A program made the position numbers and the translations under genes. The notes under the pieces were generated by a model. The model worked only from the letters and a program-made list of their open reading frames with translations. It did not search any database and was not told where the DNA came from. A stretch of DNA of 64,000 bases from Pegethrix bostrychoides GSE-TBD4-15B (lineage in GTDB: Bacteria; Cyanobacteriota; Cyanobacteriia; Elainellales; Elainellaceae). Where the stretch lies: the NCBI GenBank assembly GCA_019359155.1, contig JAHHHV010000004.1, forward strand, positions 1 through 64,000. Direction: 5' to 3'. Below, piece by piece: positions 42,301 through 55,324 of this stretch; positions within the stretch are counted from its first letter, which is position 1, and each line of letters opens with the position of its first letter.

Positions 42301-43791
42301 TTACACCGACTTGACTGGATTACTACCCTGATAACTCGTGGCTTTATGCCCCTTACTAATCGGCAAGATCAGCGTAAACGTTGAGCCTTCGCCCTGCTTG
42401 CTTTTTACTTCAATTCTGCCGCCAGCCGCCGCCGCAATCGCCCTGACAATCGATAGCCCCAGCCCAGCCCCCTCCGAACGCCGTTGAGCCGTTGAACCTC
42501 TGGCAAACCGCTCAAATATCCGCTTTTGATCGGCGGCAGAGATTCCCTTGCCCGTATCGCGCACCCAAAAGCGAATATTCTTGCGGCTTTTGGAAGAGCC
42601 AATCGCAATTGTGCCGGTCTGGGGCGTATGCTGATTGGCATTTTCAACCAGATTGAGCACCGCCTGAGTCAGCCGCTGCCGATCGATCGAGAGATTGCCG
42701 GTGGCAACGGCATCTAGCTTGCACTGACATTGGGCAATTATTCTCGCTTTCTGGTAGAGTTCCTCCGTAAAAGATTCTAGCTCGATCAGTTCAGACCGCA
42801 TAAAGTCAGGGCGACCAGCCTTAGCCAAGGTTAGCAAATCGTTGACAAAGCGATTCATTCGGTTGAGTTCATCGTTGACGATTCCGAGTACTTCTCGCTG
42901 CTCTTGGGGATCATCTGACATCAGATCAAGATGTCCCTGGATGATTGTAATCGGCGTTCGCAATTCATGGCTGGCATCATTAATGAAATTCTGCTGGCTG
43001 AGAAATGAGGTTTGAAGCCGATCCATCATTTCATTGAACGTGGTTGCCACCTGCGCCAGCTCACCCTGCCCCGTGACCGCAATCCGCTTTGACAAATTCG
43101 CCTCGCTAATGCTCCGCGCCGTTTCGGCCATTGAGCGCAGCGGCTGCAAAATGCGTCCTGAAATAAACCAAGCCAGCACAGCCGCAATCACCAGCATCAG
43201 CAGCATCACTACCAAAACCGACCGCACAATCTGGCGAACCTGCTGCTGTTCACCGCCCGTGGTCTGGACGGCAACAAATACCCCACCCGCCTGATTTCTC
43301 AGAAAAATCGGCTCGACCCGGTAGATCACTGTTCCAATACCCGGCTCGGCAGCAGCCTGTTCACTTTGAGTCATTTGACTGAGGCTTTGCCATTTTTCCA
43401 TCAGCGGTGAATTGTTCTGGATCGAAGCGGGTAACTCAGGCGGACTGCTGCGGTAGAACTGTCCATCTGCAATGAAAATAAAGTATTGCCCCGGATCAAC
43501 TAGCTCATCGTCAAGATATTGATCGGCTAGCTGCTTAAATTCTGGAATAGTTTGAGGGGATGATTGCGCCAGCACTTCTAAAAACTCCTGCACTTCATCC
43601 ACCACATCGGCCTGTAAACGACGCTCAATATCTCGAAACAGCGCTCGATAAACTACCGGCACAGAAATGCCAATAAACAGCAGCATCAACCCCAAATAGC
43701 AGAGCAAAATTTGCGTCCGAGCCTCAGCCCAATTTAGCTTTGTGCCAATTTGCTGCAAGCGTTTCTTCAATGGTTCAGGCAAGGATCTCAT
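42301..43791 (-). CDS. Sensor histidine kinase (HAMP type), paralogue
   Basis: A 496-residue kinase built like the one at 37110: membrane segments at about 27-50 and 190-212, an extracytoplasmic domain between them, HAMP, HisKA with H275 (FINDASHELRTPITIIQGHL), and an ATPase domain with NLVENANQHT, DTGKGIS and GAGLGLSI. No response regulator gene is adjacent, so it is an orphan kinase; the lone receiver at 39568 is a candidate partner. It follows the DUF928 gene by 39 bases and may be read from the same transcript. Confidence 0.9.
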   Translation of the reverse strand: MRSLPEPLKKRLQQIGTKLNWAEARTQILLCYLGLMLLFIGISVPVVYRALFRDIERRLQADVVDEVQEFLEVLAQSSPQTIPEFKQLADQYLDDELVDPGQYFIFIADGQFYRSSPPELPASIQNNSPLMEKWQSLSQMTQSEQAAAEPGIGTVIYRVEPIFLRNQAGGVFVAVQTTGGEQQQVRQIVRSVLVVMLLMLVIAAVLAWFISGRILQPLRSMAETARSISEANLSKRIAVTGQGELAQVATTFNEMMDRLQTSFLSQQNFINDASHELRTPITIIQGHLDLMSDDPQEQREVLGIVNDELNRMNRFVNDLLTLAKAGRPDFMRSELIELESFTEELYQKARIIAQCQCKLDAVATGNLSIDRQRLTQAVLNLVENANQHTPQTGTIAIGSSKSRKNIRFWVRDTGKGISAADQKRIFERFARGSTAQRRSEGAGLGLSIVRAIAAAAGGRIEVKSKQGEGSTFTLILPISKGHKATSYQGSNPVKSV

Positions 43792-43830: not shown

Positions 43831-44649
43831 TTATTCCACCACACAGCATGAGAGAATCGGCTGCGATTCTAAATTCCCTAAGCCAATTGATTGGAGCAGC
43901 GTTCGCCAATTTTTGCGGACTTTATTACTAGGCGTGTCCCGAAGCCGAGTTGCCGAGCTGTCGAGTGCATCATACCAAAGGTTTTCAGCAGCATAGAGAT
44001 CGGCATGAGCGTCGAGGGTCAGCGTTGCTAACTTCTGTTGAAGTTCCGGGCGTTCTAACCGTTGAATTGCGCCATTCACAAACACAAATCGCTCTGGATT
44101 TCCGGCGTCACACTGCACCAGCAAATACCATTCGTAGGTCTGATTCATCTCTAGCACAACCGATGCAGGTAAGCGCAGATTGACAATACCCGCAGCCGTT
44201 TGATTGCCCGCGAGCGTTTTGCGATGCACCAAATTATCCTGGCCGTCTTTCAGCACAAACTCAACCGAATGGCGCTCGGTCAAATCATAGGGCAGATAGA
44301 ACCAAAAGCTGGGCGACTGCGCCAAGGTAAACCCGGTGCTGCTGTCAGGGACAAGCGCAGTTAAAGGCGGCTTATCGGCAATTAGGCAAAAGCCGCGACT
44401 GCCTCCGCCCTGCCGTCGGCGCGGTCTGCCCGCATCCGAGAACTCTGGGCTAGAGGCTTGAGCAAACCTGGGAAGTCGGGGAGCTTCAGCGGCGGGGCGA
44501 GCTAGCGTTGAGCTGGCGACTAATGAAAATCCCAGCAAGAGAACGCTAAGAACGCCTGAGTGAATGAGCAATAGTCGAGAATGCAAGAGCAGGTTTACGA
44601 ATCGCTTTTGAGTTAATTTAGAGTAATTGACTGCCATTTTGGTATCCAT
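43831..44649 (-). CDS. DUF928 protein
   Basis: A secreted 272-residue protein: signal peptide or anchor at about 22-50, then a basic low-complexity stretch, then the DUF928 domain from about residue 95 (FWFYLPYDLTERHSVEFVL, LRLPASVVLEMNQTYEWYLL and GAIQRLERPEL are family phrases). DUF928 is found in cyanobacteria next to CHAT-CHASE2 and DUF1822 genes, as here. The function is unknown. An in-frame ATG 12 bases downstream of 44649 is an equally good start. Confidence 0.85.
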   Translation of the reverse strand: MDTKMAVNYSKLTQKRFVNLLLHSRLLLIHSGVLSVLLLGFSLVASSTLARPAAEAPRLPRFAQASSPEFSDAGRPRRRQGGGSRGFCLIADKPPLTALVPDSSTGFTLAQSPSFWFYLPYDLTERHSVEFVLKDGQDNLVHRKTLAGNQTAAGIVNLRLPASVVLEMNQTYEWYLLVQCDAGNPERFVFVNGAIQRLERPELQQKLATLTLDAHADLYAAENLWYDALDSSATRLRDTPSNKVRKNWRTLLQSIGLGNLESQPILSCCVVE

Positions 44650-44714
44650 GAGCTATAAAGAATCACCGAACTGTAAGCCGCAATCAACCCGAACGCTGCC
44701 GGAACAATTGGTAG

Positions 44715-46991
44715 CTAAACACCTTGTAGCAAGCAGCCATAGCTAATGCCGCCCAAGGCAACAACCGCCCCGATCCCAGCCAGCCCCAAGCTCAGCGGCG
44801 ATCGGCAGTAGAGCAGCCCCGCGCCCACCGCACCCAGACCCGACCAGCCCCAAATCCAGAGCGCCGCGCCCCAGTTGGGCAAACTTACCAGCAGCGGGCG
44901 CTGATCGAGCACGGCGCTCAAAATCTGGCTGGTCATCTGGGCTTGAATCACCACACCCGGCATTTTCTGCATTGGGTCAGACTGGCTGTAGGGCATCAGA
45001 AAATAATCTTTGAAGCTGGGATCAACTGTGCCAATCCACACCACCCGATCGCGCACTAGCTCTGCGAGCTGAGCATCCAGCGCTCCGCTCAAAATCTCGC
45101 CCAGCGTCACCTGAGCAGACGGCGGATTCGCAGCCCGGTAGTTCAGCATCACCTGGTAGCCCAGCGCATCTAGCTGGTGATAGCTGCCGCTGTCGGGGCG
45201 CAAGGGCGGAAATGGGGTCTGGCCAATCTTCACTGTTCCGGCAGCGTCACGGCTGGTCTGGATGCCCTGAGCGCTCAGGTAGAGCTGCGCCAGCCGCAGG
45301 CTAAACGCCGTATCGGTCACGCAAAAGCCCGGAGCCGCCGCCATGCCTAGGATCTGCCGCCGCACGACGCCGTCCGGGTCAATCGGCATATCGCTAAAGC
45401 TGATCCGAGCCGCCGGAATGCCCGCTAGCGGCTTAGTGCCTGCCCCATCTCCCACTTCGCAGACGGCTACAAACTGCGGCGTCTGCTGGAGTTGTGCCAC
45501 CAGTCCAGAAGCCGGATCAACCGGGAAATCGCGGTAGAGATCTAGGCCAACCACGCGCGGCTGATGGGGGCGCAGTTTATTCAGAAGCTGCGCTAACGCC
45601 TGATCGGACAGCGAGGCTCCGCGCCGCTCTTGGGCGTCCTGCTGCTGCACATCTTGATCGGTAATGGTCACCAACAGCAGACGCGGATCAGGAGCTTCAG
45701 CCGGACGCAGGCGCATCAGTTGGTCGAATGCTCGCAGATCCCAGGTTTGGAAGCCACCCAGATGACGAATGCTGACTGCACTTCCGGCCACGAGCAGGCT
45801 AGCCAACAGCACGGGCCAGCGCGGTCGGGCAGGTGAAGCCAAGCGCACTGATGGTTTCTGAAATAATTCCTGTAATGGTTCCCGTAACGTTCGCCAGCGC
45901 ATGGGTTCCTCCGCCGGATTCTGGCAAATCAGCGGCAGCCAAGTAGCGCAGGGATACTCACCCTCAAACTGTTCCAGCTTTTCGCGGGCTTCGCGCACTG
46001 CTGCATAGAGGCTTTGGCCGCGCGAAAATTGGCTGAGAAACTCCCGAAAAAATGCCTGCGCCACCGCATCGGGCACGAGTTCTCGCATCACGATCACCTG
46101 GGGAATATGCAGATCTGCCAGCGCCTGCGCCAAGCCAAGCCCATCGCAAGAGTTGAAAATTGCCAGCTTTAAACCCTGCCGAATCGCTCGCTTCAGCCCA
46201 TTTCGCAGCTGATTTAGGGTGAGGCTATCCTCATCGCTAATATAAAGTCGTCCAGTCTCGCCGGTTGCCTGCGCTTCCGTTTGGCTATGTCCAGCAAAAA
46301 ATAAGACATCCCAGCCCTGCTGATCCCAGAGCTGTTCATGCAGCTCTGCATGGCTAGGCTGATTCAAAAACAGGGGTGCCGCGTTAGGCAATGCCTCAAT
46401 CACCTGGCGTTCGCTCTGAAGATCGATGTTGTGACTGTTGCCCAGCACCGCTAGAATTCGCACTGCGCCCGTGGACTGGGGGCGATCAAGGCGCTCATAT
46501 TCCGCTACGCTCAACGCCACTTCTGCTTGAGGAAAGTCTTCAAAAAAGTTCCACAGATGCCAGGGCAACCGTCGCAAAATCGGATCGTTCGTTTGGATCG
46601 TCACCTGAATCGAATCAGTTGGGTCAAACAAGCGGCTCAATTTACGATCAATTGAATGAAACGACTCGGCATTCAGCCAGGTATTCAAGCACCATCGCAA
46701 CTGCTGGGCTAGGTCACTAAACTCAACTTCGGAAAAGTGGGTGACGCCGCTCGATGAAATTGTGATCGCCCGCGTGGCAGAGAATCCCGAAGCTCCTCGC
46801 TCCCGGTAAAACTCTCGATAGAGCAACTGCCAGCGGCGATAGAGCTGCTCTAGCTCAGGGGCAGGCGGCAAACTGCCCACATATCGCATTGGATACTGTT
46901 TTTCAGCTTTATTTAACACCTGTGCGATTACGCTGGCACAGCCATTCTGCAAATCTCCAACGCCCAAATTAAGCACGATAAAATGACTCAT
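44715..46991 (-). CDS. CHAT protease-like and CHASE2 domain membrane protein
   Basis: The N-terminal half (about 1-360) is a CHAT domain, a caspase/separase-like fold, with the catalytic pair H235 (FFAGHSQTE) and C282 (IFNSCDGLG). A membrane segment near residue 390 leads into a CHASE2 sensor domain (about 410-690), and further hydrophobic segments at about 695-755 end the protein. So an extracytoplasmic sensor is tied to a cytoplasmic protease-like domain. The gene lies 28 bases after the DUF1822 gene, with the sigma-like gene before that. A role in signalling or regulated proteolysis is inferred. Confidence 0.88.
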   Translation of the reverse strand: MSHFIVLNLGVGDLQNGCASVIAQVLNKAEKQYPMRYVGSLPPAPELEQLYRRWQLLYREFYRERGASGFSATRAITISSSGVTHFSEVEFSDLAQQLRWCLNTWLNAESFHSIDRKLSRLFDPTDSIQVTIQTNDPILRRLPWHLWNFFEDFPQAEVALSVAEYERLDRPQSTGAVRILAVLGNSHNIDLQSERQVIEALPNAAPLFLNQPSHAELHEQLWDQQGWDVLFFAGHSQTEAQATGETGRLYISDEDSLTLNQLRNGLKRAIRQGLKLAIFNSCDGLGLAQALADLHIPQVIVMRELVPDAVAQAFFREFLSQFSRGQSLYAAVREAREKLEQFEGEYPCATWLPLICQNPAEEPMRWRTLREPLQELFQKPSVRLASPARPRWPVLLASLLVAGSAVSIRHLGGFQTWDLRAFDQLMRLRPAEAPDPRLLLVTITDQDVQQQDAQERRGASLSDQALAQLLNKLRPHQPRVVGLDLYRDFPVDPASGLVAQLQQTPQFVAVCEVGDGAGTKPLAGIPAARISFSDMPIDPDGVVRRQILGMAAAPGFCVTDTAFSLRLAQLYLSAQGIQTSRDAAGTVKIGQTPFPPLRPDSGSYHQLDALGYQVMLNYRAANPPSAQVTLGEILSGALDAQLAELVRDRVVWIGTVDPSFKDYFLMPYSQSDPMQKMPGVVIQAQMTSQILSAVLDQRPLLVSLPNWGAALWIWGWSGLGAVGAGLLYCRSPLSLGLAGIGAVVALGGISYGCLLQGV

Positions 46992-47019
46992 TTGAATATG
47001 AATTAGATATCGTTAATTA

Positions 47020-47940
47020 CTAAAGAATAAAGCTCTCGCTAATGCTGGCATGGTCAATTGTGATCTGAATATCAAAGCTATCCCCCGCCTCGCCGCGAAA
47101 ATGCCGGAGCTGAATGTAGCTGTCCTGTGCCCTAGAGCAAACTTCTTGCAGATGATCCCCCGTTTCGCTCAGCATGGTTAGCTTCAAATTGGGTGGCAAA
47201 TAGCTGCTTCCGGGCGCAGGATAAGTCTGCACCAGCACGTTCATACTGGTGTCCGGATTCAGCGTGATGGCCAAAGAGAGCACAACCGACTGCTCGCCCA
47301 GATCCATGCCCACATCAATTAGCTTGGCCTGCCGCACAGCAATCTCAAACTGCTCTGGACTGCGGACGGTTGCCATTTGCCTCTGACTGTCGCCCAATAC
47401 CTCCTCGAAAGTTTGCCAGCCCGTTTCGGCAATTCCCGTTAGCCATTTCCTTAAGCGAATAATTTGCCGGTTGCTGCCCACAGCCCGCTGGTTCTCTGGA
47501 CTAAGCCGCTGCAAATAGAGCGGAAACTGATCGAGGGGTTGCAGTTCAGTCAGCGGCAGTTCGGCGCTGGGAGTGGGGGTGAAGCCCAGCAGCGTTGCCG
47601 ATTTGAGGCTAGGGTCAAACTGCACTGCCAAATAGCCAATCCGGTCAGCCCAAGCGTCAGCCGCAACATGCAGCCGCTCAGCGCCTGGCAGCACCGTACA
47701 GCATTCCAGCTTGCCGTAGGGTTCAACCCAGAGATCGGCGACGTCAATAAATTTCGCCATCCAGGGATCGCGCCAATCGCTCTGGCCAGGGTCAGCTTCA
47801 ATGCCCAGACAGCGCAGATACAACTCAACCGCATAGACTGTCAAAGCCTTTAAATAGAGCTGCGGCGACTGCTGGGCAATGGCATGAGCTTCGTAGGAAA
47901 GCGGGACGGTAAAACCTGTTAATGCTACGGTCTGATTCAT
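47020..47940 (-). CDS. DUF1822 protein
   Basis: A soluble 306-residue protein of the cyanobacterial DUF1822 family: N-terminal helical part with AVELYLRCLGIEADPGQSDW near residue 36, then the phrase GYLAVQFDPSLKSATLLGFT near residue 107, and a beta-rich C-terminal half (about 205-306). No catalytic residues are obvious. Members nearly always sit between a sigma-like gene and a CHAT gene, as here, which suggests that they form a complex or relay. The function is unknown. Confidence 0.86.
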   Translation of the reverse strand: MNQTVALTGFTVPLSYEAHAIAQQSPQLYLKALTVYAVELYLRCLGIEADPGQSDWRDPWMAKFIDVADLWVEPYGKLECCTVLPGAERLHVAADAWADRIGYLAVQFDPSLKSATLLGFTPTPSAELPLTELQPLDQFPLYLQRLSPENQRAVGSNRQIIRLRKWLTGIAETGWQTFEEVLGDSQRQMATVRSPEQFEIAVRQAKLIDVGMDLGEQSVVLSLAITLNPDTSMNVLVQTYPAPGSSYLPPNLKLTMLSETGDHLQEVCSRAQDSYIQLRHFRGEAGDSFDIQITIDHASISESFIL

Positions 47941-47989
47941 AACTAATCTCGCTGCATATTAAAAGATAATCAACCATGAAGCACAAAAT

Positions 47990-48673
47990 CTATACTTCTA
48001 GATACTGTTTGAAATAAGGAACTAAATCTCTGAGCTGACGATTAAAGAAACTACAAAGCGTCTGGGCTGGAACATCTAAACTTTTGGCGATCTCTGGCCA
48101 GGCTTTGCCCTCAACGAATTTGGCAATTGCCAGCGCCTGGAACGTCACGTCTGGGCGCTCGCGCAACCGCAGCTTTTGGAATCGACCCTCTGGGTCTTGC
48201 CGCAAAAACTGCTGAATTTGCATGTCAGCATCTTCTACAGCCGGAGAGAACAAGGGTAAATCTTCTAGCGAGGGCAGCCGCACCGGGAACCGACTCTCTG
48301 CTTTTGGCATTTGAGTCATGCCCTGCTTCTGATAGTCTTTCACAACCTCAATGAACTGGCAGTTTAACCGAAAGTTCACCCAGGCCATTACCGGATGCTC
48401 TGGTTTGTACTGATCTATTTTTTGGCAGATTTCGATCAGCGTTTTTTGCAGGGCTTCGTTGTATAGATCTATGTATAAGCTAGGCGGGTAAGCAGAGCGC
48501 TGCGGATGTCCCAATCGACCCGATCGCAAGATACCGTTTACAAACTGGTTCAGCAACATTTGCCGCTCCGGACTGCAAGACGGACAGGCTGAAATTTGTT
48601 TCACCTGTGCTACCAACTCTGCATCAAGCTGCATCTGAGCTGATGAATTGAGAGCTTCCTCCTGGTCAACCAT
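47990..48673 (-). CDS. Sigma-70-like protein of the DUF1822/CHAT gene set
   Basis: A 227-residue protein with the layout of a small alternative sigma factor: a region 2-like part (about 30-120, with YNEALQKTLIEICQKIDQY and VNFRLNCQFIEVVKDY) and a C-terminal helix-turn-helix resembling region 4 (about 180-220, GKAWPEIAKSLDVPAQTLCS). The -10 and -35 contacts cannot be read from sequence alone. It is the first gene of the set that continues with DUF1822, CHAT-CHASE2 and DUF928. A GGAG ribosome site lies ten bases before the ATG. Confidence 0.8.
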   Translation of the reverse strand: MVDQEEALNSSAQMQLDAELVAQVKQISACPSCSPERQMLLNQFVNGILRSGRLGHPQRSAYPPSLYIDLYNEALQKTLIEICQKIDQYKPEHPVMAWVNFRLNCQFIEVVKDYQKQGMTQMPKAESRFPVRLPSLEDLPLFSPAVEDADMQIQQFLRQDPEGRFQKLRLRERPDVTFQALAIAKFVEGKAWPEIAKSLDVPAQTLCSFFNRQLRDLVPYFKQYLEV

Positions 48674-49045
48674 TTAATCACGCTCCGCCGAACTGAAGTT
48701 ATGGGCGATTCTGTCGAGATCTGCTTCAGTATGGCAGCAGCTTGAGCACTATATCCATACCTCCTCAATGACGCTTTCTATAAAACGATTCTGCCTCCAC
48801 TCACGCAGTCAACGAAATTTGTTTTAAAACTTAACATGTTTCATCTTATCGCCTTAAAGCGCCGCGAAAGAAGAAGAATCAGCGCAAAATATTGTAAATT
48901 TCTGTAAAGAAGTCCGTTGATTAGGGTGATGTTGAACTGAATAGGGGTAGTGGGCACATAGGGGCAAAAAACGGCAAAGTAGTACAAATAATCGAAAGAA
49001 CCAGCAAATTCTACTTCAAGTAGTTATACTAAATAGATTCATAAT
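48674..49045. other. Intergenic stretch with a candidate Tn3 terminal repeat
   Basis: There is no gene here. The left part should hold the promoter of the sigma-like gene. The right part contains a 38-bp stretch (48944-48981) that looks like a Tn3-type terminal repeat. Confidence 0.5.
48944..48981 (+). repeat. Candidate terminal inverted repeat of a Tn3-family transposon
   Basis: The sequence starts GGGGTAGTGGGCAC and continues to GGCAAAAAACGGCAAAGTA. Tn3-family ends are 38 bp, begin GGGG and have an A-rich inner half, and they sit shortly past the tnpA stop; this stretch lies 65 bases beyond it. The partner repeat is not in the window, so the call rests on form and position. Confidence 0.45.
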
Positions 49046-49576
49046 TTATGCCGCGAGTTGAATATTTAAGCGCTCCTCAAGATTCAACTCAAACTTCCCA
49101 TAAGGGTTAATATGGACGTACACTAATGGTGTAATTCCTCGCAAGTCCTCCGTGCTCATTAGCTGCGACCAATCTGATTCCGACAGAACCTTTTGCATCA
49201 TCAGCGTGTTAATATAGACCAAACACATCTGAAGCAGATGTAGCGATAGAAGCGATAGTTCTTGCTCTGCGCGATGATTGCTCGTAAGTTCACCACTCTT
49301 GCCATAACAGATAAAACTATTCGCGCTATTCCAATTCTCAACTACGTTCAACCCTTCCTGGATCTCTTGACGTAACTCTTCTAAGTTCAAATAGCGACAG
49401 AGAAAGCTTGTCTTGACTGCTCTGCCCAATTCGATTAAGGCTTGCAACTGGTTGCGGGTTTTGTTCAAACCGGATGCGGCATTTTGAAAGTTAGGGACAA
49501 ATTGAGCACTCAGTGAGTTGGGCGGAAGGATTTTTGATATTTTCCCCGCCATTTTTGCAATCATTCCCGGTTCCAA
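49046..49576 (-). pseudogene. Tn3-family transposase, C-terminal fragment
   Basis: About 170 residues match the last fifth of Tn3-family TnpA: LGRAVKTSFLCRYLNLEELR, a block with YGKSGELTSNHRAEQEL, and the terminal GITPLVYVHINPYGKFELNL. The full transposase has about 1000 residues, so most of the gene is gone. It is cut at its 5' side next to an IS5-family remnant. A fragment of another tnpA end is found at 4982-5061. Confidence 0.85.
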
Positions 49577-49635: not shown

Positions 49636-50325
49636 TTAGCCTTTACAGAAATGCCTGAGATTGATCATCGTGTAGGCCAGGGTTTTCAAGGCATAGTGCA
49701 ATTTGCTGATCCGTTCGAAGCGCTTCAGCAAACGCCGAAACTTGTCCTCCCACGCGAAGACTCGCTCGATGGTGTAAAACCGTTCCTGAACAATGGCTGG
49801 GTCGAAAATGGGTTTGCGCCCCCGCTTTGGCGTCCTTCTACCGTGTAGATTTTCAGGAACATTCGGAATCATCCCACGATTGAAGATGGCTTTGCGGTTT
49901 GAGCAGCTATCGTAGACCCCATCCAAGCTGACGATGGTCTGGCTTAAATCGAGTCCGACTTGCTTGGCAATGCTGATCACTTGTGACAGTGTCCTCTTCA
50001 ACAGCGGCGATTCGTTGCGATGGCCAGGAGGCGCTATGAAAGGAGCGATGACATGGCAGTGACGGTCACAGAAGGGAGTCACTTTGTCGCCTTTCATGTG
50101 CTTGTGCCCGCTAAATCCAAGATTGTCGCCGCCCTTTTTCGCTACTGTCATCGTCCCGTCGTCCTGGATGACGCTGATGTCGAGATGCCCTTTGAGAGAC
50201 AGTAGCGACACAGAACCTGCGAAAATGGCACCGAAGCAGCCCTGGGCTTCGTAGCGCCGAAAGGCGGCATAGATCTGGGTGTAATGTCCTGCTTTACGTT
50301 GATACCCTTGGAAAGCCCAGCTCAA
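49636..50325 (-). pseudogene. IS5-family transposase, N-terminally truncated
   Basis: The frame holds most of an IS5-type DDE transposase: DNLGFSGHKHMKGDKVTPFC, NESPLLKRTLSQVISIAKQV, VSLDGVYDSCSNRKAIFNRG, RTPKRGRKPIFDPAIVQERF, and ERVFAWEDKFRRLLKRFERI with TMINLRHF at the end. The start region is short: an in-frame stop lies near 50366 and no proper start codon or ribosome site is seen, so the gene is probably inactive unless the missing first frame is rescued by a frameshift. It lies between the Tn3 fragment and the glycoside hydrolase gene. Confidence 0.78.
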
Positions 50326-53413: not shown

Positions 53414-55324
53414 CTAACTATCAGCAACTCCAAGCAATGCTTGAATTTGGGCAAGGTGTTTGGGTTGAATCGTTCGCTGACCTTTGAGCCAACGAGTCAC
53501 TAGAGAGCGATCCACTCGCAGGGCATCCGCGAGCTGTGCCTTGGTCATCCCAACTTTATCAAGGGCAGCCTGGATTGCATCAGAGCCGAATTGAGAAGGC
53601 TGGACAGGCGGACGCGCAGCTTTCAGAGCGACTGGCGCACTGCCGCCAAGCTTCTCCTGAATTTTTACTGAAGGTTTGATAATCACAATCGCAGTAAGCC
53701 ACTTTGAAAGCCAGTTGCGGGGTCGATAGCCAGTATCCATGCTGTCTTGCAATGACCAAGCCGGTCGAATGCTCTCAGGATAGCTGGGCAGATCAAAATC
53801 AATTTCCCAGCCCAATTCTTTGAGCGTCAAAAGAGCACTGTCCCACTGATTGATTAATTTAATCCGGCGCGAGCGATCCGCCTGTATCGTCTCAAGCAGC
53901 TCTTTGGGTTCTAAGCGTTCCAGCAGCGTCCGCACCTGATAGCGCCCATCGTCCCGGATGCGAGACATGATGGTGAGGAAGATAGCGAGTTTGGAAGCCA
54001 ATCGCTGACGGTAGGGATTGATCTGAAGCGTACTCTTGGCTAAATAGCCATATTGATAGAGCGACTCTTTGGCATCGATATCGCTAGCGTTGAGGAATTT
54101 TTCGGTCCAGACACCGGGGCGCACCTTAATGAAGAGTTCATCCGGCTCCCCGGCCTCATAGCGAGACGATCCAGGTTGATTCACATCCATTGTTAAGGCT
54201 AGCTGACCTGCATATCCTAGCCCTTCTAGCATCCACATCGCGCCCCGCTCGACGTTGTAGCGCTTTGTGCCAATGTTGATGTTGCTAATTAGCACAGAAA
54301 GACTGCAAACTAATTCCACCAGATGCCCAATCTTTTTGAGCTTCTGGGCAATGGTGATATCGGTGCGCTTATCCCAGCCAAATAGCCGAATTAGGTCGGT
54401 GCCCTTGAGCCGAATCTGCTCGGCCCAAGGTTCTTCCGAATCCGTTGCATAGGACGAAAAGATCAAGAACACATAAGCTGCTTCAGGGCCAAACTGCTGG
54501 ATAATCTCCCAGGCTGCCTTGCCTGGAACCAGCTCAATCTGCTGCTTTGAAGGGCTTTGCCGGACAATTTGGTGCTGGATGAATCCATCTCCCACCAGCT
54601 TCTTCCAGTGAGGATATTCGCCATCTTGCCATTGAGAGTTGATTAGCGCCTGGGCACCCGTCAAGATGGGGTACCCAGTCGCCACGCGCTCGACCTCGAC
54701 ATCTTGAAACAGCGGCTCGCGCATGGCGGGCACACCCGCCGTCTTAATGCCCAGTAGCTTATCCAACTCAGCTGCGCTATGGCCCGACAAGTCCAGATGC
54801 CGCAGCCACTGGCTAGCCGTATGACAGGCACAGGCGCTCACAACCAATGACTCACGCCACTCGTCGCTGTCGGTCAGATCAACGCCCGATTCGAGTGACA
54901 GCATACCCACAACCGAGCAGTCAGACGGCATTAACTCATCCTGCTGCCACTGCTCAAGCCGCAGCAAAATCCATCTGGCCGTCTGCTCCCAAAACTCATC
55001 TGACTTTAATATCGAGCGAAAGCGCCGCTCAAGCTGCACCATTGCCTGCTTTTGCAGTGCCCCAATCTTCTCAGTCTCCCCATAAAGATTGATTACTTCA
55101 GCACTATCCTTGGACTGAGAATGAGCCAGATGGAGTCTAAACTGATTGATGCCAGTTGCCACATTCACAAGCAGCAGGTTGAGAAATGCCCTGCCTGCTT
55201 TAAGCTTGGTCGCGTAAATCTGTATTTGGTCTAGGGAGATTGACACAAGCTCTGAATCAATCGGCCCATCTAGAACTGTGACTAAATCTAGGGCTATCGG
55301 CTTGGCCACGGGCATCACGCGCAT
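53414..55324 (-). CDS. Plasmid-type protein with a C-terminal helix-turn-helix
   Basis: A 636-residue protein without a named family that I recognise. The last 55 residues are a clear helix-turn-helix of the Xre/Cro type (MTKAQLADALRVDRSLVTRW). A central region (about 290-420, with RLKGTDLIRLFGWDKRTDIT and KKIGHLVELV) has a winged-helix look. The gene is transcribed away from the repeat array at 55494-56110, divergently from the replication protein, which suggests a role in replication or copy control. It has no RuvC or nuclease motifs, so despite a length near that of Cas12k it is not Cas12k. Confidence 0.7.
   Translation of the reverse strand: MRVMPVAKPIALDLVTVLDGPIDSELVSISLDQIQIYATKLKAGRAFLNLLLVNVATGINQFRLHLAHSQSKDSAEVINLYGETEKIGALQKQAMVQLERRFRSILKSDEFWEQTARWILLRLEQWQQDELMPSDCSVVGMLSLESGVDLTDSDEWRESLVVSACACHTASQWLRHLDLSGHSAAELDKLLGIKTAGVPAMREPLFQDVEVERVATGYPILTGAQALINSQWQDGEYPHWKKLVGDGFIQHQIVRQSPSKQQIELVPGKAAWEIIQQFGPEAAYVFLIFSSYATDSEEPWAEQIRLKGTDLIRLFGWDKRTDITIAQKLKKIGHLVELVCSLSVLISNINIGTKRYNVERGAMWMLEGLGYAGQLALTMDVNQPGSSRYEAGEPDELFIKVRPGVWTEKFLNASDIDAKESLYQYGYLAKSTLQINPYRQRLASKLAIFLTIMSRIRDDGRYQVRTLLERLEPKELLETIQADRSRRIKLINQWDSALLTLKELGWEIDFDLPSYPESIRPAWSLQDSMDTGYRPRNWLSKWLTAIVIIKPSVKIQEKLGGSAPVALKAARPPVQPSQFGSDAIQAALDKVGMTKAQLADALRVDRSLVTRWLKGQRTIQPKHLAQIQALLGVADS

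Follow-up and report, generated by a model that had tools for sequence, protein, structure and literature searches.

Bacterial caspase-like proteases have been linked to transcriptional control in several settings, and these provide the points of comparison for the four-gene set analysed here, which encodes a sigma-like, a DUF1822, a CHAT-CHASE2 and a DUF928 protein in the cyanobacterium Pegethrix bostrychoides GSE-TBD4-15B (assembly GCA_019359155.1, contig JAHHHV010000004.1, positions 1 to 64,000 of the forward strand; this whole stretch of 64,000 nucleotides is called the window). The closest described relatives are the predicted EACC2 systems, in which a constant N-terminal module and a caspase domain are followed by a variable C-terminus that can be CHASE2 (Kaur, Burroughs, Aravind et al., eLife 2021; PMC8195603). 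Most of their TRADD-N-independent versions adjoin genes for an extracytoplasmic function (ECF) sigma factor and a DUF1822 protein, and auto-proteolytic activation with a transcriptional output has been proposed for them within a framework of biological conflict (PMC8195603). The window locus is an instance of a predicted EACC2 system, as the constant N-terminal module, the caspase-like domain behind it, the variable C-terminus and the ECF sigma and DUF1822 neighbours are all present; from this layout and these neighbours we infer that the N-terminal region of its CHAT protein (residues ~1-190) is EACC2-like. An earlier reading of the window from its letters alone (the sequence-only reading) had held that the four families have no described function, which does not stand for the core of sigma factor, DUF1822 and EACC2 caspase.

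The locus differs from the published description in several respects. DUF928 is absent from that description, whereas here it adjoins CHASE2, and we propose CHASE2-DUF928 as a separate sensing module. DUF1822 was called a TPR protein, whereas the structural model obtained here combines an alpha/beta domain with an Ig-like sandwich; and no substrate was named beyond auto-activation, whereas DUF1822 is proposed here as both anti-sigma factor and substrate. One earlier paper mentions DUF928, noting one case of it next to CHASE2, in a Nostoc genome, and the response of a DUF928 protein to acid stress. New in this work are the modular dissection of the system, the pairing of DUF928 with CHASE2 and the proposal that DUF1822 is an anti-sigma factor.

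Two experimentally characterised pathways resemble the step proposed for the centre of the line. Csx29 (TPR-CHAT) cleaves Csx30, the inhibitor of CASP-sigma (PMC10028731), and this cut by a CHAT protease relieves an ECF sigma factor, as we propose for the window. Differently from the Csx29 system, no gene for a CRISPR effector or guide RNA lies beside the window operon, and the trigger here would be a membrane CHASE2 sensor; DUF1822 is likened to Csx30 by its proposed role, with no claim of kinship. In Anabaena, HetF cuts PatU3, a protein that binds HetZ and restrains it (reviewed in PMC12288457), a further case of a cyanobacterial membrane-anchored CHAT protease cutting a protein that limits a transcription activator, although HetZ is not described in that review as a sigma factor. 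The window CHAT protein was also considered as a HetF itself and belongs to a distinct family (NCBIfam HetF model, 16.3 bits against a cut-off of 1200). We propose, by analogy, that the window operon works like the Csx29 and HetF systems while being a member of neither. The comparative evidence points to two exchangeable modules forming a line from membrane to sigma factor, in which the CHAT protease would cleave a DUF1822 anti-sigma factor and release the sigma; we judge the chances of this reading to be evenly balanced.

Organization of the operon

The four intact open reading frames (ORFs) lie on the minus strand in the order sigma-like, DUF1822, CHAT-CHASE2 and DUF928, are separated by gaps of 49, 28 and 65 bp, and form one operon:

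47990-48673, minus strand: sigma-like gene, first of the operon; 227 amino acids, short ECF-like sigma factor
47020-47940, minus strand: DUF1822 gene; 306 amino acids, Pfam PF08852 (E=1.2e-51)
44715-46991, minus strand: CHAT-CHASE2 gene; 758 amino acids, PF12770 (CHAT, 4.4e-17) and PF05226 (CHASE2, 1.1e-59)
Domains of the CHAT-CHASE2 protein: constant N-terminal region ~1-190; CHAT 191-344 with H235 and C282; CHASE2 405-721 with hydrophobic flanks
43831-44649, minus strand: DUF928 gene; 272 amino acids, PF06051 (2.9e-49)

The Pfam scores of DUF1822, CHAT, CHASE2 and DUF928 are all far over cut-off, in agreement with the genes and family names given by the sequence-only reading. About 200 loci were compared overall. 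A first sample comprised the neighbourhoods of ~120 DUF1822 genes across the phylum, annotated with hidden Markov models built from the loci, and a second one 54 named loci picked by the CHAT-CHASE2 protein itself. The order and adjacency of the set are seen again in dozens of genomes, and the arrangement is therefore not due to chance.

By its domain (62.9 bits against a Pfam cut-off of 24) and its His/Cys dyad, the CHAT protein is a CHAT peptidase and thus a putative protease. In the first sample H235 is present in 77/77 and C282 in 74/74 homologues where aligned, and in the second each of the 53 proteins keeps both residues; the pair singled out by the sequence-only reading is invariant and has not been lost in these homologues.

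Two modules linked through the CHAT protein

The first module consists of the sigma-like gene and DUF1822. A sigma-like gene is found directly 5' of DUF1822 in 108 of the 115 genes with enough upstream sequence, loci without a nearby CHAT gene included, and across 18 loci without an adjacent CHAT gene (as judged by the loci-built models) no neighbours other than sigma and DUF1822 are shared by every locus. Since the pairing also exists without CHAT, DUF1822 belongs first to the sigma factor and second to CHAT. Two types of DUF1822 occur, a short one after a short sigma, which is the kind present in the window, and a long one (~390 amino acids) after a sigma of 400 amino acids. The long proteins in the sigma slot match sigma-70 at 1e-27 to 1e-30; their identity with SigJ was considered and is not claimed, SigJ having been reported as apparently monocistronic. 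The window's own sigma-like protein has no Pfam match and gives weak NCBIfam sigma matches (4e-4) in sigma-70 regions 2 and 4, while 14 of 39 members of the short family in the same operon slot are matched by the sigma70-ECF model (best 4.1e-10). The short family is diverged (mean column identity 28%), and its profile matches ECF sigma factors of the PDB weakly (E ~0.07).

The protease attached to this module may not always be CHAT. A strongly matching Peptidase_C14 caspase is found near seven sigma-DUF1822 pairs that have no CHAT gene, and at locus L254 it comes immediately 3' of DUF1822, where CHAT is usually located. These few loci suggest that the sigma-DUF1822 pair can be served by more than one kind of caspase-fold protease. 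Large C14 caspases beside such CHAT-less pairs are:

L254, 2168-5965: Peptidase_C14 caspase
L162, 2889-5273: Peptidase_C14 caspase
L256, 11582-16663: Peptidase_C14 caspase

CHASE2 and DUF928 form the second module. In the first sample a DUF928 gene lies within 1.5 kb of 51 of the 55 CHAT-CHASE2 genes and of 1 of the 23 CHAT genes without intact CHASE2 (Fisher p ~2e-14, uncorrected for relatedness), and that single case is a frame-broken CHASE2 gene (L109). In the second sample DUF928 adjoins all 19 members of the short-sigma class of CHASE2 genes with full flanks. The association was also approached from the other side with 45 DUF928 genes taken from high-scoring matches across the class, which are not a random draw: a CHASE2 gene occurs within 3 kb in 27 and at 500 bp or less in 21, and none is present in the region of 17. 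Another common partner of the DUF928 genes without CHASE2 was sought and none was found. In the CHASE2 proteins near DUF928 the sensor is combined with an adenylate cyclase, protein kinase or TIR domain, or with no further recognised domain. From gene neighbourhoods, the factor common to DUF928 is CHASE2 and not CHAT. One of these proteins, a TIR-CHASE2 protein with DUF928 directly after it (L221:5772-8266), represents a CHASE2 sensor with a TIR output.

The window DUF928 protein has a signal-peptide-like N-terminus, and its AlphaFold2 model consists of an Ig-like sandwich with four C-terminal helices, for which fold searches returned generic Ig-like matches only. We propose that DUF928 is a periplasmic partner of CHASE2, a role with which the putative export signal and the model are consistent.

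The CHAT protein joins the two modules, and its sensors appear interchangeable: residues 1-375 align across 77 proteins bearing several different C-termini, and the same N-terminal CHAT module is found elsewhere with Peripla_BP_6, PBP_like_2, nSTAND1-WD40 or GUN4, or TPR sensors. The earlier statement that the four families occur together holds for their recurrent order and adjacency; judged by independent occurrence, which the sequence-only reading had named as refuting its view, the set is not one indivisible unit and has to be revised into two modules that the CHAT protein connects, with DUF1822-sigma and DUF928-CHASE2 each also occurring without CHAT.

Co-evolution of the five parts

Pairwise evolutionary distances of the five parts were compared across 45 complete short-type operons, in a post hoc analysis of related loci. 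The partial correlations (jackknife standard errors 0.06-0.15) were 0.46 for sigma-DUF1822, 0.62 for DUF1822-CHAT and 0.55 for CHASE2-DUF928, and -0.16 and 0.02 for the pairs sigma-CHAT and DUF928-CHAT, respectively. CHAT and CHASE2 gave 0.24, despite being parts of a single polypeptide. The correlations recover the chain sigma - DUF1822 - CHAT - CHASE2 - DUF928, which is the order expected of a signalling line, and the CHAT/CHASE2 junction marks an exchange point between the modules.

DUF1822 as a candidate anti-sigma factor

In the AlphaFold2 model of the window DUF1822 protein an N-terminal alpha/beta domain is connected by a less confident linker to a C-terminal Ig-like beta-sandwich (mean predicted local distance difference test score 88.9, predicted template modelling score 0.57, low confidence at residues 152-156). 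As modelled, the protein is not a TPR protein, and the low template modelling score suggests mobile domains. Profile searches of the PDB with DUF1822 and DUF928 yielded nothing useful. In fold searches the C-terminal domain of DUF1822 gave generic Ig-like matches only and the N-terminal domain was barely covered; an anti-sigma RsgI4 domain among these matches (Z 6.1) did not stand above unrelated rows and was not used.

In non-photosynthetic members of the phylum with small genomes the DUF1822 match spans only the N-terminal ~160 residues, and at L262 this domain is followed by a zf-HC2 domain (E=1.3e-6, over cut-off). Anti-sigma factors of the ZAS type, RsrA among them, typically carry a zinc finger of the zf-HC2 kind; the same finger type is fused to the DUF1822 N-domain in some of these relatives, and weak RsrA matches were obtained in L262 and L265. 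An HxxxCxxC motif follows the DUF1822 N-domain in L262, L265 and L267; two of the three genomes are small and melainabacteria-like, and the other is also non-photosynthetic. The motif is thus present in 3 of the 6 DUF1822 proteins examined from non-photosynthetic genomes, compared with 2 of 1187 background ORFs. At L267, 10 bp separate the zinc-finger DUF1822 gene from a sigma-like gene on its 5' side; in the non-photosynthetic relatives other than L267, the two genes upstream of DUF1822 that could be scanned encode radical-SAM proteins. This zinc-finger fusion provides a hint, short of proof, that DUF1822 works on sigma factors. The fusion protein of L262 runs on beyond the finger into a very acidic tail.

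A proposed line from membrane to sigma factor

In the proposed line the exported DUF928 protein and the periplasmic CHASE2 domain would detect an envelope or small-molecule cue, and a signal passed across the membrane would activate the cytoplasmic CHAT protease with its H235/C282 dyad. CHAT would then cut DUF1822, most probably at the linker that connects the alpha/beta and Ig-like domains. DUF1822 would keep the neighbouring ECF-like sigma factor inactive until this cut frees it to redirect RNA polymerase. We infer four elements of this scheme: the binding and inhibition of sigma by DUF1822, its role as CHAT substrate, the contact between DUF928 and CHASE2, and the nature of the cue. Protease-triggered signalling with a transcription-factor output, as the sequence-only reading had surmised, is well supported by the invariant dyad, the chain of co-evolution, the sigma-DUF1822 pair and the interchangeable sensors.

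Several observations weigh against the proposed line. The gene order equals the inferred chain, so that physical linkage may feed the correlations; simple linkage, however, predicts the strongest value inside one gene, where the weakest link of the chain is found. In the second sample DUF928 adjoins only 4 of 12 long-sigma-class CHAT-CHASE2 genes (8/12 are without it), and ~24 of the 58 sigma-DUF1822 pairs of the long type lack a caspase-fold gene in their vicinity. The fold of the cyanobacterial DUF1822 gives no specific match to a known anti-sigma factor. Differently from the ZAS proteins, the cyanobacterial DUF1822 proteins have no finger (HxxxCxxC in 0/125), and three of the six non-photosynthetic proteins also lack it.

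Alternatively, the same line could operate with other roles at its centre, CHAT cutting the sigma factor itself as a pro-sigma, or DUF1822 acting as a co-factor or adaptor that the sigma needs. The sigma-DUF1822 pair and the order of the chain would look alike in this case, and the divergence of the short family leaves room for an unusual sigma. However, the partial correlation of sigma with CHAT is about zero or negative while that of DUF1822 with CHAT is the strongest, a finger of anti-sigma type is fused to DUF1822 in some non-photosynthetic relatives, and it is the inhibitor that is cleaved in both known CHAT precedents. We consider these altered roles unlikely.

Taken more widely, the line with DUF1822 as inhibitor would make DUF1822 a new class of anti-sigma factors cleaved by caspase-fold proteases (CHAT, sometimes C14), and DUF928 a dedicated periplasmic co-receptor of CHASE2 whatever the output, in a sensor-protease-sigma class of signalling systems that is widespread in cyanobacteria and present in multiple copies. 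This generalization is tentative, its chances being in our view somewhat short of even. It would offer roles for two orphan families that most of the cyanobacteria examined possess, frequently as several copies in one genome, and would give the caspase-like proteases of free-living bacteria a place in everyday signal transduction rather than in cell death. CHASE2 is a sensor domain common in bacteria, and a secreted partner dedicated to it would offer a route to its ligands. If the protease step is true, control of sigma factors by caspase-fold proteases would recur as a principle outside CRISPR systems.

Regulation, copies and distribution

Two candidate regulatory elements were found 5' of the operon, the first of which follows the HLR1 consensus (PMC11633204):

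48891-48908, minus strand: HLR1-like (RpaB-type) box TTTACAGAAATTTACAAT, 15/16 consensus positions, ~220-235 bp 5' of the sigma start
48806-48836, minus strand: conserved upstream block tgttaagttttaaaacaaatttcgttgactg, candidate promoter/operator

The block is recognisable in five otherwise non-aligning upstream regions (those of the window, its paralogue and three relatives), and the paralogous operon on contig C89 of the host genome has a 15/16 HLR1-like box at the same alignment position. Boxes matching at least 14/16 positions lie 5' of 14 of the 51 short-sigma genes, compared with 3.1% for other ORFs, the motif having been chosen after the upstream alignment was viewed; long-sigma genes show no clear excess. 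This suggests that the short class is under RpaB (light/redox) control.

The host genome has six DUF1822 matches. The C89 paralogue is a second copy of the full set, with a CHAT protein 83% identical to that of the window; two further DUF1822 genes (L153, L154) belong to versions with a Peripla_BP_6 sensor and one (L155) to a divergent CHAT-CHASE2 version. The remaining one, 3' of a long-type sigma gene (L156, G000:C64:110124-110867), is broken by two in-frame stops and represents a copy in decay within this genome. Between the window and C89, dN is 0.11-0.22 and dS at least 1.1 (near saturation) for all four genes; with dN far below dS, all four are under purifying selection. Within the order, DUF1822 is found in 33 of 36 genomes, mostly in several copies, and DUF928 in 35 of 36. 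The nearest named relatives are Elainella-like and Leptolyngbyaceae/Oculatellaceae cyanobacteria. Among the closest orthologous operons, three from metagenome assemblies (L259, L260, L261) have broken or missing sigma, DUF1822 or CHAT/CHASE2 frames, reflecting either decay or assembly errors.

These data also bear on whether the set could be a system of biological conflict, with invasion as the trigger and the CHAT protease or the sigma regulon killing or protecting the cell. That is how EACC2 systems were framed (PMC8195603), and nSTAND1-WD40 sensors on some copies and the TIR-CHASE2-DUF928 pair fit it. We nonetheless regard it as quite improbable: PADLOC defence models match none of the four proteins, the families are not distributed patchily within the order as defence islands are, many sensors are periplasmic solute-binding types, the HLR1-like boxes suggest light/redox control, and all four genes are under purifying selection. 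Of the stress or cell-death role suggested by the sequence-only reading, stress receives only indirect support, from the boxes 5' of short-sigma genes, and no evidence was found for cell death.

It is very improbable that the genes merely share a neighbourhood and its regulation, with CHAT acting on other substrates and DUF928 an unrelated secreted protein: DUF928 and DUF1822 do each occur away from CHAT, but the CHASE2-DUF928 pairing is too specific and persists when the output domain changes, and the partial correlations track the expected contacts beyond co-inheritance.

Neighbouring features

After a gap of 39 bp, DUF928 is followed on its 3' side by a histidine kinase gene of the same orientation (42301-43791, minus strand). 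The C89 set has a kinase 82% identical to it in the same place (L138:2418-3932), and no close homologue was found in the other operons examined; as the kinase is common to the window and C89 sets only, the duplicated unit comprised five genes. A search of the window for Rfam RNA families found none. Further upstream, at 53414-55324 (minus strand), lies a gene for a 636-amino-acid protein with a C-terminal Xre-like helix-turn-helix and no other Pfam domain. Between it and the operon are a C-terminal fragment of a Tn3 transposase (49046-49576, minus strand) and a second transposase-like ORF (49636-50325, minus strand), remnants that are likely the scar of past mobility.

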